From the NCBI RefSeq assembly GCF_017643905.1, contig NZ_JAEPMO010000009.1, positions 1 to 49,188 of the forward strand: a DNA stretch of 49,188 nucleotides, given 5' to 3'. Source of the stretch: Marivita sp. (GTDB lineage Bacteria > Pseudomonadota > Alphaproteobacteria > Rhodobacterales > Rhodobacteraceae). The position numbers and the translations under genes were made by a program. The stretch's first letter is position 1, and each line of letters begins with the position of its first letter. This document shows, in pieces, positions 27,554-45,341 of the stretch. The notes beneath the pieces were generated by a model. That model was not told the origin of the DNA, made no database searches, and was given only the letters and a program-made list of their open reading frames with translations.

Positions 27554-27599
27554 GGCATCTCGACCTCCGGTGCACCCCGCCCGGGTTCAGTTCACGTAA

Positions 27600-27764
27600 G
27601 ATGGCAGGTCTCCTGACTCGCGGGTCATCGTGCGGCTCGCACCTTCCCAGACCAAACGGTCCAGTGGTTTTGCGCGAAGCACTCACCGCTTACAGTTGCG
27701 GGGGCAGTCACGGATTTTCACCGTATTCCCTATTCGGACAGCGCATCACACGCTGCCCACCATC
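27600..27764 (-). ncRNA. Cobalamin (B12) riboswitch
   Basis: The minus strand carries the full set of conserved aptamer blocks in order: AATAGGGAATACGGTGAAAATCCGTGACTG, CCCCGCAACTGTAAGCGG (B12-box region), CCACTGG, GGGAAGGTG, GATGACCCGCGAGTCAGGAGACCTGCC. The outer stem pairs GATGG near 27764 with CCATC near 27600. This class binds adenosylcobalamin or a related form and usually turns expression off when B12 is plentiful. It faces the single 100-aa gene at 27182-27484. The ORF track shows only accidental ORFs here. Confidence 0.93.
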
Positions 27765-28012
27765 AAAATTCACTGTCACAGATCATGCGAGTCCAATCAA
27801 TCTACATTGTGGGAATATCTCCAATTCGATGCAATCGTCGGTAACGGCACACCGGTTGTTAAGACTTCGGTGCCAGAACAGGGCAGCACTTGGGCGGTAT
27901 GGCCCAATTCACTTGGAATGGGCCCTGTCCGATGCTCCTAGCCGCCATGTTTCGACTGCTCTGGCACTGCTCGATTGATGTCTTGTGCGGTGACGCGGCC
28001 CGTGCGGGATCA
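27765..28012. other. Non-coding stretch with an imperfect palindrome
   Basis: No credible gene is seen between the riboswitch and the end of the large secreted protein. GGCCCAATTC-acttg-GAATGGGCC at 27901-27924 is an imperfect stem about 90 bases beyond the stop of the large gene and could be its terminator, though no U-tract is obvious. The promoter of the riboswitch transcript must lie near 27770-27810 but no convincing -35/-10 pair is visible. Confidence 0.3.
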
Positions 28013-31951: not shown

Positions 31952-32368
31952 TCAGGTCCGGCGCAGCTTGATCACGACGTTGACACTGGAAATCTCTGCC
32001 CCTTCCGGCGGACCGGGAATACGGGCGATTTCAAGTTCGTCCGCAGGTGCATCCGTCAGACGCCCTTCGTCTTCCCAGAAGAAATGCGGATGGTCATGGG
32101 TATTGGTGTCGAAGTAGCTGCGTGCGCCATCGACCGTGACTTCCTGCATCAAACCGGCTTCGCAGAATGCGCGAAGGGTGTTGTACACAGTTGCTAGCGA
32201 CACCTGTTCGCCAGTGGATTGCGCGGCGGCAAACAGGCTTTCAGCGGTGACATGGCGGTTCTTGCCATCGCCGACCAGCAGAGATGCCAACGCGACACGT
32301 TGCCGTGTGGGGCGCACGCCACCCTTGGTCAGCCATTCCGTTCCGCGGTCGATGGATTGTGAAGACAT
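31952..32368 (-). CDS. irr: Fur-family iron response regulator Irr
   Basis: The 138-aa protein is a Fur-superfamily regulator: winged helix [61 protein letters not shown] followed by [20 protein letters not shown]. The NTxxHxHFF pattern and position next to fabA identify it as Irr, which in alphaproteobacteria controls iron and haem genes in response to haem. The usual HHH stretch is here HDHPH, so two His remain in register with an extra spacer. The N-terminal HRM (GCPWHD) of Bradyrhizobium Irr is absent. It is transcribed away from fabA with an AAGGAG site just upstream. Confidence 0.85.
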
Positions 32369-32424: not shown

Positions 32425-32541
32425 TTAAATTTCTTGCAACAACTTGTCTCAGGCGCTGCGGCCCGGTGGGCTTGCACGCGCGGCGGGCAGGGTGCTAGAG
32501 GGGGCAGGATTTTGCCAATCACACCGGGAGCCTTGTCCACC

Positions 32542-33051
32542 ATGTCCGAATTTCCTCGCAGTTTCGACCGTGACGATCTCTTGAAATGTGCGCGTGGTGA
32601 GCTGTTCGGACCCGGAAATGCACAGCTTCCTGAACCGCCGATGCTGATGATGGATCGGATCACCGATATCTCTGGCGATGGCGGAGAACATGGCAAAGGC
32701 CATGTTGTGGCCGAGTTCGATATCACGCCGGACCTGTGGTTTTTTGACTGCCACTTCCCCGGAAACCCGATCATGCCGGGCTGTCTGGGCCTTGATGGAC
32801 TTTGGCAATTGACCGGTTTCAACCTGGGCTGGCGCGGCTGGCAGGGACGCGGCTATGCGTTGGGTGTGGGCGAGGTCAAGCTGACCGGCATGGTGCGTCC
32901 GGATCGCAGGATGCTGACCTATTACGTCGATTTCACCAAGGCGATCCAGACGCGACGCCTGACGATGGGTGTTGCCGACGGCCGGGTCGAGGCGGATGGC
33001 GAAACCATCTATGTCGTCAAGGACATGAAGGTCGCTCTGTCGGAAAGCTGA
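32542..33051 (+). CDS. fabA: 3-hydroxydecanoyl-ACP dehydratase/isomerase FabA
   Basis: The start at 32542 ([30 protein letters not shown]) gives 169 aa, matching FabA; the track ORF starting at 32284 runs through the divergent promoter. The hot-dog-fold signature [29 protein letters not shown] contains the active-site His and the Asp of GLDGLWQ. FabA dehydrates 3-hydroxydecanoyl-ACP and isomerises the product to cis-3, committing it to unsaturated fatty acids, with FabB as the next enzyme. In this genome region dddL is inserted between the two. Confidence 0.95.
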
Positions 33052-33077: not shown

Positions 33078-33740
33078 CTATTTCTTAGGGCCGGGGCTGA
33101 AGACCATTTTCTGGTTCGCCTGCTTGTCCCGCGCACCGGTCCACGCGTAACACAAAAGCGCGGGGTTCTGATCTACGACCGTGATACGGTGCCGCTGCTC
33201 GGGCGGGTTGAAGATCAGCGATCCCGGCGCATACACGCCCTGATCGTTTTCCGACACGGCGCCTGACAGGCAGATATAGCTTTCGGAAATGCCGTCATGC
33301 GCATGGGCCGGATAGGTACAGCCCGGCGCAAAAAGAACGAGCCCGAGGATCACTTCGTCTGTGATCACAGGTCCGGTGGGACCGACCAGTTCGGCATAGG
33401 CATAGGTCCGTTCCAGTCCGCGTGGCACTTTTTCGTAGCCGTATTGCCAGACCAGATGGGCCTGCACGCTTTCCAACGCGCGAATGAACGGCGCGTGGCG
33501 TTCCATCCGGCCGTTGTCGAGCGCACGGCGCCAATGGGCTGTGACTGGCTTGGACACGGGGTCATGTTCATGCACTTCGGCATTTGCCTTGATCACCCGA
33601 CTGATCCCGTCGCGGACGGTTTTCTGGTGGCTGCGGATCTTGGCGCTGCCTCCGGCAGACAGACGCCGGTAGAGCTCGTAGTAGTCGCGCAGAAGGTAAA
33701 GCCAGTCCGGGCGGTCCTGAAGACGGGGTTGGTCTGGCAT
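33078..33740 (-). CDS. dddL: Dimethylsulfoniopropionate (DMSP) lyase, DddL type cupin
   Basis: The 220-aa protein resembles DddL of Rhodobacteraceae over its whole length: KIRSHQKTVRDGISRVI, DPVSKPVTAHWRRALD, WQYGYEKVPRGLERTYAYAELVGPTGPV, and the cupin core VLFAPGCTYPAHAHDGISESYICLSGAVSENDQGVYAPGSLIFNPPEQRHRITV. Candidate metal ligands are His146, His148, Glu153 (with Tyr155) and His184, matching the H-x-H, E/Y, H set of the DddL/Q/W cupins. It cleaves DMSP to dimethyl sulfide and acrylate. The gene stands alone, convergent with fabA (26 bases) and divergent from fabB, with no acuI, acuK or dmdA beside it. An AGGA site precedes the ATG. Confidence 0.85.
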   Translation of the reverse strand: MPDQPRLQDRPDWLYLLRDYYELYRRLSAGGSAKIRSHQKTVRDGISRVIKANAEVHEHDPVSKPVTAHWRRALDNGRMERHAPFIRALESVQAHLVWQYGYEKVPRGLERTYAYAELVGPTGPVITDEVILGLVLFAPGCTYPAHAHDGISESYICLSGAVSENDQGVYAPGSLIFNPPEQRHRITVVDQNPALLCYAWTGARDKQANQKMVFSPGPKK

Positions 33741-34012
33741 GGTTGTATCCTGTCTGGCGCGGGCGATTTTGCCGCTGTGTCGCGATTCAGGGCGACGGGT
33801 TCAAGCCCGAACTGTCCCGGCGGTAGCTCGCAGAGGCGCATAATCCAAAGGTTTTTCGCATTTTGTGCCCGATGGGCGCTCTTCTGCCGCCTATCGTGGC
33901 AGTTTCTGATCTGCCGTGGGCCGTCACCGGAAGCCATCCACTGTGTCCAATCTGCTTGCTCCTTCCCCCCACCTTCCCCTACACACGCATGCAACAATTG
34001 TAAGGAGCCGTG
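33741..34012. promoter_or_regulatory. Divergent control region between dddL and fabB
   Basis: About 270 bases with no gene. A strong TAAGGAG site directly precedes fabB. The stretch 33840-33880 (ATAATCCAAAGGTTTTTCGCATTTTG) is AT-rich and may carry the dddL promoter on the minus strand. No clear operator was recognised. Confidence 0.35.
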
Positions 34013-35242
34013 ATGCGCCGTGTTGTCGTGACAGGATTGGGGATTGTTTCATCGATCGGGAACAATGCCGAAGAGGTGGCCGCGAGTCTGAAGGCAGGCC
34101 GCTCGGGGATCACCGCAAATGCCGATATGGCCGAACATGGGTTCCGGTCGCAGGTTGCCGGGGCCATCGATCTGAACGTGGCCGACCATGTCGACAAGCG
34201 TACGTTACGGTTCATGGGGCCGGGTGCGGCCTATGCGCATATCGCGATGGGTCAGGCGATTGCCGATGCGGGGCTGACACCGGACGAGGTGGTGAACCCC
34301 ATGACAGGCCTGATCGCGGGATCGGGCGGGCCGTCGACCAGCGCCATGCTGGCCGCGCATCAGTCTGTACTGAGCACCGGGGCGACCAAGCGGATCGGGC
34401 CGTTTGCGGTGCCCAAGACGATGTCGTCGACGGTCAGCGCCAACCTTGCGACGGCCTACCAGATTAAGGGCATGAATTTCTCGATCACCTCGGCTTGTTC
34501 GACCTCGTTGCATTGCATCGGCATGGCGGCGCAGCAGGTGGCTTTGGGCATGCAGGATGTGATGTTCGCAGGCGGTGGCGAAGAACTCGATTGGACGCTG
34601 TCCTGTCTGTTCGACGCGATGGGTGCGATGTCGTCGAAATACAACGACACGCCCGAGAAAGCGTCGCGCGCGTTTGACGCCGGTCGCGATGGCTTTGTGA
34701 TCTCGGGCGGCGGCGCAATCGTGGTGCTGGAACCGCTGGAACGGGCCTTGGCGCGCGGTGCCACGATCTATGCTGAAGTTACCGGGTTTTCGGCCACGTC
34801 GGACGGCGCTGACATGGTGGCGCCATCGGGCGAAGGCGGCGAACGGGCGATGCGTGGCGCTCTGAAAACGCTGCCAGGGGGGCGCAACGTGAGCTACATC
34901 AACGCACATGGCACCTCGACACCTGTGGGCGATGTTGGTGAGATCGAAGCCGTGCGGCGTGTCTTTGGCGAGGGCAGCACACCCCCGGTAAGCTCCACCA
35001 AGTCGATGACCGGCCACAGCCAAGGTGCGACGGGTGCGCAGGAGGCAATCTACTGCCTGCTCGCGCTGCGGGACGATTTCATCATTCCGTCGATCAACGT
35101 GGAAACACTCGACCCGGCGCTGAAACCGGAAGAGATCGCCACGGAATTGGTGGAAAACGCAGGGCTTGATACGGTGATGACCAATTCTTTCGGGTTCGGC
35201 GGCACCAACGGGTCGATGTTGTTGTCTAAGTACGTAGGTTGA
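34013..35242 (+). CDS. fabB: 3-oxoacyl-ACP synthase I FabB
   Basis: The ATG at 34013, six bases after AAGGAG, is preferred to the GTG at 34010. The 409-aa condensing enzyme has the full catalytic triad: Cys in [13 protein letters not shown] (about residue 162), His in [13 protein letters not shown] and His in [14 protein letters not shown], plus the C-terminal [11 protein letters not shown] loop. FabB elongates saturated acyl chains and the cis-3-decenoyl-ACP made by FabA. It is followed after two bases by fabI, giving a compact fabB-fabI operon. Confidence 0.95.
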
Positions 35243-35244
35243 AG

Positions 35245-36036
35245 ATGTCGGGACAGTTGCAGGGCAAACGCGGGCTTATCATGGGCGTCGCCAATGAACG
35301 CTCCATCGCGTGGGGGATCGCCAAAGCGATGGCCGAAGCGGGCGCAGAGCTTGCCTTCACCTATCAGGGCGAAGCGTTCGGCAAGCGGCTGGAGCCTCTG
35401 GCGGCAAGTGTCGGGTCGGATTTTATGGTCGATGTCGACGTGACCGATGATGCGTCACTCGATACCGCGTTCGAACAGCTCGCCGCGCGCTGGCCGACGA
35501 TTGATTTCCTTGTCCACGCCATCGCGTTTTCCGACAAGTCTGAACTTCAGGGGCGGATCCTCAACACCAGCCGCGCCAACTTCAAGAATTCGCTGGATAT
35601 TTCGGCCTACAGCTTCATCGACGTGGCGCGCCGGGCGCACCCGTTGATGGTGGAGAACGGCGGCACGCTTCTGACGCTGACCTACATGGGCTCGACCCGC
35701 GTGACGCCCAGCTACAATGTCATGGGCGTGGCCAAGGCCGCATTGGAAGCCTCTGTGCGCTATCTGGCGAACGATCTTGGTCCCGAAGGGATCCGCGTCA
35801 ACGCGATCAGCCCGGGTCCGATGAAGACGCTCGCAGGCGCGGCCATCGGCGGCGCGCGCAAGACGTACAAGCACACGGACATGAACGCGCCTCTGCGGTC
35901 GAATGCGACGCTCGAGGCAGTTGGTGGGACAGCGGTGTATCTTGCGTCGGATGCCGGTGCCTGCACCACGGGCGAGATCATTCGCGTCGATGGTGGGTTC
36001 CATGTTTTGGGCATGCCGCAGTACGAGCATCTTTGA
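35245..36036 (+). CDS. fabI: Enoyl-ACP reductase FabI
   Basis: The start is the ATG at 35245 (MSGQLQGKRGLIMGVANERSIAWGIAKAMAEAGAELAFTYQGEAF); the track's TTG two codons earlier overlaps the fabB stop. The 263-aa SDR enzyme has the FabI-type NADH-binding GVANERSIAWG loop, and the catalytic Tyr-x6-Lys pair in SYNVMGVAKAALEASVRYLA. It reduces enoyl-ACP in the last step of each elongation cycle. A Gly-Phe-type triclosan-binding loop cannot be assessed by eye. It ends the fab cluster. Confidence 0.95.
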   Translation: MSGQLQGKRGLIMGVANERSIAWGIAKAMAEAGAELAFTYQGEAFGKRLEPLAASVGSDFMVDVDVTDDASLDTAFEQLAARWPTIDFLVHAIAFSDKSELQGRILNTSRANFKNSLDISAYSFIDVARRAHPLMVENGGTLLTLTYMGSTRVTPSYNVMGVAKAALEASVRYLANDLGPEGIRVNAISPGPMKTLAGAAIGGARKTYKHTDMNAPLRSNATLEAVGGTAVYLASDAGACTTGEIIRVDGGFHVLGMPQYEHL

Positions 36037-36872: not shown

Positions 36873-37895
36873 ATGGACCGAGAAGTGTCTTTTCAACCGG
36901 GCGACATAAGCAATGAGGATGCGACTGCGATCTTCAGCTCGTCCACAGTCTCCATGGTTCTGACCAATCCCCGTTTGCCCGACAATCCGATTGTATACGT
37001 GAATCGCGCGTTCGAACGGCTGACCGGCTACACGTCAGACATGGCGCTGGGCCGCAATTGCCGATTTCTGCAGGGCGAGCAAACCTCTGCTTCGGCGGTG
37101 AAGGACCTGCGAAACGCTATCGAGAAGCGCGCGGAAATCTCGACCGTTTTGACGAACATCCGCGCAAATGGTGAGCCGTTCCTGAACGCGCTTCTGATTT
37201 CGCCGGTCGTCGATGACACCGGAGAGCTGGTGTACTTTGTGGGGCTCCAAAGCGAAGTCGCCAACGACAAACAGGCGGAACGGCTCAAGCAGTTCGAAAC
37301 CGTCATGGCCGAGATTCAGCACCGCGTTAAAAACCACCTGTCGATGATCCTTGGCCTCATCCGAATGAAGGCGCGCAAAAGCAAAGCGCCTGAGGAATAC
37401 AAAGACCTGTCCCGCCGGATCGAAAGCCTGCAATTGCTCTATGAGGAAATGTCGGCGGCGACGCTGGAACGCAATGACGGCAAGATCAAGCTGGGTGCGT
37501 ATCTCGGCCGTGTCGCCAACGCGATCGCCTATCTCGACAGTCGTCCCGGCGTGCGCATGAACATCCATGTCGAACCGCTCATGGTGGACACGGAAACCGC
37601 TGTGCGGATCGGGTTGATCCTGTCAGAGGTTCTGACCAACGCGATGCAACACGCGTTCCGGGATCAGAAGTCCGGTCTGGTTGAATTGCGGGTGATGCGC
37701 ACGGACAATGGCGGGATGCGCGCAATGGTCACGGACGACGGGGTTGGTCTTCCAGTAGGTGTGACTTGGCCCAATTCGGACGGTTTGGGAGGGCGCATCG
37801 TACAAGGACTCTGCGAGGGTCTGGAGGCTACTCTTCAGGTCACACGGGGCGCCGTGGGAACCATCGTCACATTGGACGTTCCCGTCGCGGATTGA
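36873..37895 (+). CDS. LOV-domain blue-light sensor histidine kinase (HisKA_2 type)
   Basis: The 340-aa protein begins with a PAS/LOV domain: FSSSTVSMVLTNPRLPDNPIVYVNRAFERLTGY then GRNCRFLQGEQTSASAVKDLRNAIEKRAEI. Cys63 in GRNCRFLQG is the residue that forms the light-driven adduct with flavin. A C-terminal kinase follows, with the phospho-His in AEIQHRVKNHLSMILGLIRMKAR (HisKA_2/HWE class) and the ATP-binding block LILSEVLTNAMQHAFRDQKSG ... DDGVGLPVG. There is no membrane segment, so it is cytoplasmic. No response regulator is adjacent; in related bacteria such kinases feed the general stress response (PhyR/EcfG). It ends six bases from a convergent gene. Confidence 0.9.
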   Translation: MDREVSFQPGDISNEDATAIFSSSTVSMVLTNPRLPDNPIVYVNRAFERLTGYTSDMALGRNCRFLQGEQTSASAVKDLRNAIEKRAEISTVLTNIRANGEPFLNALLISPVVDDTGELVYFVGLQSEVANDKQAERLKQFETVMAEIQHRVKNHLSMILGLIRMKARKSKAPEEYKDLSRRIESLQLLYEEMSAATLERNDGKIKLGAYLGRVANAIAYLDSRPGVRMNIHVEPLMVDTETAVRIGLILSEVLTNAMQHAFRDQKSGLVELRVMRTDNGGMRAMVTDDGVGLPVGVTWPNSDGLGGRIVQGLCEGLEATLQVTRGAVGTIVTLDVPVAD

Positions 37896-45281: not shown

Positions 45282-45297
45282 CCCAAACCATCATTCC

Positions 45298-45341
45298 CGT
45301 CACAACGGCTTCCTGACGTGACGGCAGACCCTAATGGAGCA
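45298..45341 (+). ncRNA. SAM/SAH riboswitch in the metK leader
   Basis: CGTCACAACGGCTTCCTGACGTGACG followed by TAATGGAGCA matches the SAM/SAH riboswitch known from Rhodobacterales: a hairpin formed by CGTCA and TGACG whose loop (GGCTTCC) pairs with the downstream GGAGC to make an H-type pseudoknot. The GGAG is also the ribosome-binding site, so binding of SAM or SAH blocks metK translation. The entire element fits in the 63 bases between lnt and metK and leaves only three bases before the ATG. Confidence 0.9.

Follow-up and report, generated by a model that had tools for sequence, protein, structure and literature searches.

The window analysed here, a stretch of 49,188 nucleotides that makes up contig C173 of a 4.44 Mb Marivita genome, carries a gene for a DMSP lyase inside a block of fatty-acid synthesis genes, which raises the question of whether dddL is a recent insertion in this organism or an older feature of its lineage. 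The preliminary description had placed the gene in an irr-fabA-fabB-fabI block, and family models confirmed each of these neighbours. The Fur-family iron response regulator gene irr (31952..32368, minus strand) was above the cut-offs of both NF045678 (IrrA, E = 2.6e-59) and NF045677, and fabA (32530..33051, plus strand), for the 3-hydroxydecanoyl-ACP dehydratase/isomerase, was above that of TIGR01749 (E = 3.8e-76). The best model for the beta-ketoacyl-ACP synthase I gene fabB (34010..35242, plus strand) was PRK07967 (E = 2e-185; 616 bits versus a cut-off of 630), while the enoyl-ACP reductase gene fabI (35239..36036, plus strand; adh_short_C2, E = 1.5e-86) had FabI models as its best, yet fell under their narrow cut-offs. 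The dddL gene (33078..33740, minus strand) is convergent with fabA, with 26 bp from stop to stop, and divergent from fabB.

Several other features were observed in the window. One is the gene for a 1206-amino-acid protein with a DUF4214 domain (PF13946; 28013-31633, minus strand), for which no further Pfam match was found; most Marivita species have it downstream of irr. A LOV/PAS histidine kinase of the HWE/HisKA_2 type (36873-37895, plus strand) follows fabI in many, not all, Marivita loci. There is also a cobalamin riboswitch at 27586-27779 on the minus strand (134.7 bits) and a SAM/SAH riboswitch at 45294-45341 on the plus strand (59.7 bits).

The 220-amino-acid dddL product matched the Pfam DMSP_lyase family PF16867 (E = 3.5e-36; 124.8 bits versus a cut-off of 27) and grouped with DddL rather than with DddQ or DddW, in one tree with full-length homologues that were 52-94% identical to it. 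As first described, the cupin is complete: motif 1 reads H146-A-H148-DGIS-E153-S-Y155 and ends with G160 (HxHx4Ex6G), and H184 supplies the histidine of motif 2, so that the predicted metal ligands H146, H148, E153 and H184 as well as Tyr155 are intact. H146, E153 and Y155 were present in all 67 aligned DddL sequences, H148 in 66 and H184 in 65. An AlphaFold model built from 36 homologues (mean pLDDT 91.7, pTM 0.88) showed a cupin barrel like that of the solved DMSP lyases, and DddQ structures made up the whole of its top six PDB matches (E = 2.7e-13 to 1.1e-10, TM 0.61-0.75). DddQ shares the fold and the aligned ligand and tyrosine positions but is a separate family with only 15-20% identity; likewise, DddW has a similar fold and the same pattern of three histidines and one glutamate (PMC4437653) and belongs to a family of its own. 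A sequence search of the PDB copy recovered distant DddQ entries only and no solved DddL, and the DddL family thus represents a structural gap. The gene is best read, from its sequence and predicted structure, as encoding an authentic and ordinary DddL, which adds a member to a known family and whose location is specific to the genus.

By analogy with characterised relatives, the enzyme is very probably active and converts DMSP to DMS and acrylate, and production of DMS by its host is likely. E. coli gains the ability to cleave DMSP when it carries cloned dddL, and in Labrenzia aggregata about 97% of the DMSOP lyase activity is due to dddL (both PMC10686828); mutants of DddW have shown that the cupin metal ligands are essential (PMC4437653). 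In the preferred reading, the metal would be held by H146, H148, E153 and H184, with Tyr155 at the place of Tyr131 in DddQ, and this metal-dependent cupin would cleave DMSP to dimethyl sulfide and acrylate. Closest in kind are the DddL proteins of Labrenzia (Roseibium) aggregata, Sulfitobacter EE-36 and relatives, which are also full-length members of the family encoded by dddL genes unlinked to acuI (PMC3338564), although at other genomic locations than between fabA and fabB. Roseibium homologues from the searched genomes, which are not the ratified proteins themselves, were 72-74% identical to the window protein and share its ligand set.

Another main physiological substrate, such as DMSOP, appears quite improbable for this cupin. 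Cupin DMSP lyases do cleave DMSOP as well, but DddL belongs to those for which DMSP is the preferred substrate of the two (both PMC10686828). Millimolar Km values and a second PF16867 cupin in the same genome (L113:5446-6204 on contig C232, with R. pomeroyi DddQ as its closest match, E = 1.1e-19) would fit a different role, against which stand the intact set of DddL ligands and the presence of the DMSP genes dmdA and acuI. The second cupin gene lies near an apparent valyl-tRNA synthetase gene.

The preliminary description had also remarked that acrylate-handling genes are missing from the vicinity of dddL. The neighbours are indeed fabA and fabB, but the arrangement is not noteworthy, since bacteria with dddL also have acuI in their genomes, usually unlinked to it, and close linkage was known only from R. 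sphaeroides (PMC3338564). Here too a gene for AcuI, the enzyme of acrylate detoxification, was found on another contig, C76 (E = 4.4e-186 to the PDB AcuI 5gxe). It directly follows dmdA (E = 6.5e-107 for DmdA), which is the usual order in roseobacters (PMC3338564). The genome also encodes a PrpE-like CoA ligase (E = 1.9e-204, under the NCBIfam cut-off), and acrylate may be handled in trans by this ligase and AcuI. Rhodobacter sphaeroides 2.4.1 shares the enzyme family and the predicted reaction, but its dddL comes last in an acuR-acuI-dddL operon that is induced by acrylate (PMC3017554), whereas dddL stands alone in the window, preceded by a promoter-like element of its own and lacking an acuR neighbour. 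Few of the other loci examined had acuI near dddL (L030, L071 and L091-L094), and the DddL proteins encoded beside AcuI in L091-L094 were about 52-54% identical to that of the window.

To place the site in a wider context, we searched 17 Marivita genomes, one per species, and found full-length dddL in 12, always between fabA and fabB. Outside the genus, neither fabA nor fabB was found beside dddL at any of 55 loci encoding 51 distinct proteins (26 with flanks of up to 6 kb and 29 with flanks of 1.5 kb), and the location between fabA and fabB can thus be considered a genus trait. Clustering of the dddL neighbours in other genera revealed none that was widely common across genera, and the clusters consisted mostly of shadow frames. 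The Marivita proteins formed one clade in the DddL tree, with M. hallyeonensis near its base. Among the papers searched, none names Marivita together with dddL, but dimethylsulfoniopropionate lyase has been noted as absent from two Marivita MAGs and present in other genomes of the genus (PMC8774927). An additional small gene for a YgaP-like transmembrane protein (PF11127) was seen between dddL and fabB in M. lacus and M. hallyeonensis (L007:5625-5903 and L010:5651-5866).

These comparisons bear on the local insertion that had been suggested for this organism. That dddL was inserted into the fab block is borne out by relatives in which fabA and fabB are uninterrupted, with gaps of 30 bp in G230 and of 107 and 82 bp in the Marivita species G007 and G010. 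That the insertion is private to this organism is refuted, and a recent date is not supported, as 11 other species have dddL at the same site with the same upstream element, a remnant persists in a species without the gene, and the composition of dddL (GC 0.608, GC3 0.715) lies between that of fabA (0.586, 0.690) and fabB (0.620, 0.744). The base composition, which had been proposed as a check, is therefore native rather than foreign. Moreover, identity to the nearest outside genus was similar for DddL (83%) and FabB (81%). A recent, organism-specific horizontal transfer into the block is thus highly improbable, even though dddL is absent from the site outside Marivita, is patchy in the family (full-length in about 45 of 298 sampled genera) and is known to undergo lateral transfer in roseobacters (PMC2904699). 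Within the genus, dddL occupies this place in most relatives, as expected of an ancestral feature; outside it does not. Carriage by a phage or mobile element was also considered and rejected, as no viral contig had a close dddL and a single plasmid record was recovered, with a homologue of 48% identity that is annotated as DddL.

The five species without dddL differ in the state of the site. In addition to the empty gaps of G007 and G010, the gap in G006 (L105:5315-6671) holds genes on the minus strand for a LuxR-type protein, a cytochrome b561 and a PepSY protein, and the block is broken in G009, where fabA and fabB are on separate contigs, with a GMC-oxidoreductase-like frame after fabA and a gcvP-like frame ahead of fabB (both named by eye). 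No trace of dddL was found in these four species. In G012, the first 91 bases of the 220 bp gap could be aligned with the 3'-terminal part of dddL from its sister species, with an alignment score of 87 versus a maximum of 27 for shuffled sequences. This species groups among the carriers (98/98 with G002) in a tree inferred from the aligned reading frames of rpoC. The retained, decayed 3' end and the nesting among carriers show a secondary loss of dddL in G012.

The simplest account of these patterns is a single early gain of dddL in Marivita followed by several losses. A gain in only part of the genus, with subsequent spread to other species as the fab region underwent homologous recombination, seems unlikely, although AU tests rejected a single clade of the carriers with G012 (p = 0.0006) or with G012 and G006 (p = 0.0003), and the empty sites of G007 and G010 are devoid of remnants. 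On the other hand, a clean deletion would leave no trace, the remnant in G012 shows that losses happen, and M. hallyeonensis (G003) branches early in both the species tree and the DddL tree. The Marivita backbone is weakly resolved in the species tree, which leaves room for transfer within the genus.

Putative promoters of dddL and fabB were recognised from conserved sequence elements; a scan with the sigma-70 consensus found no promoter. Upstream of dddL, the promoter-like element TTGAAC-N17-GACACA (33776..33804, minus strand) is located 64 nt from the start codon, and each of the 12 Marivita dddL loci has it as TTGNRY-N16/17-GACAYA between positions -62 and -77, with the variant GACAGA in M. 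lacus and G015. When upstream regions were shuffled, 6 out of 6000 contained the strict form. The corresponding element of fabB, TTGCTC-N18-TACACA (33956..33985, plus strand), is conserved as TTGCYC-N17/18-TACACA at 56-57 nt before the ATG in each of the 16 loci of the genus with an intact fabA-fabB gap, and is retained alike at empty, remnant, other-cassette and dddL sites. Since fabB keeps its own putative promoter, the insertion would be tolerated without cutting off fabB expression.

Taken together, we assign a probability of about 0.83 to the explanation in which an authentic DddL, transcribed from its own promoter and with acrylate handled in trans, was gained once and early, descended vertically and was lost in some lineages. 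The gene would have entered the fabA-fabB gap upstream of a pre-existing fabB promoter, sparing fabB expression, and would be transcribed alone from the element in the dddL-fabB spacer; inheritance would have been vertical, with loss in G012 and probably in other lineages.

More tentatively, the fabA-fabB gap of Marivita and its relatives might be a place where the arrival of single niche genes is tolerated, so that DMS production would come and go in the genus through this one site. The cargo would include dddL, the LuxR/cytochrome b561/PepSY set, a nuclease-like gene and an Rrf2-type regulator, the last two being apparent by eye in G090 (L111) and G196 (L112), respectively, and with the conserved promoter of fabB such cargo could enter or leave at the fabA end without harm to fatty-acid synthesis. 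Having probably been present since early in the genus and lost in some species, dddL at the fab site is informative as a detail but not surprising. DMS release is predicted for most Marivita species, and those expected to lack the DddL route are identified. With intact, remnant, empty and replaced states, this one site documents the loss of a DMSP lyase as a natural series.
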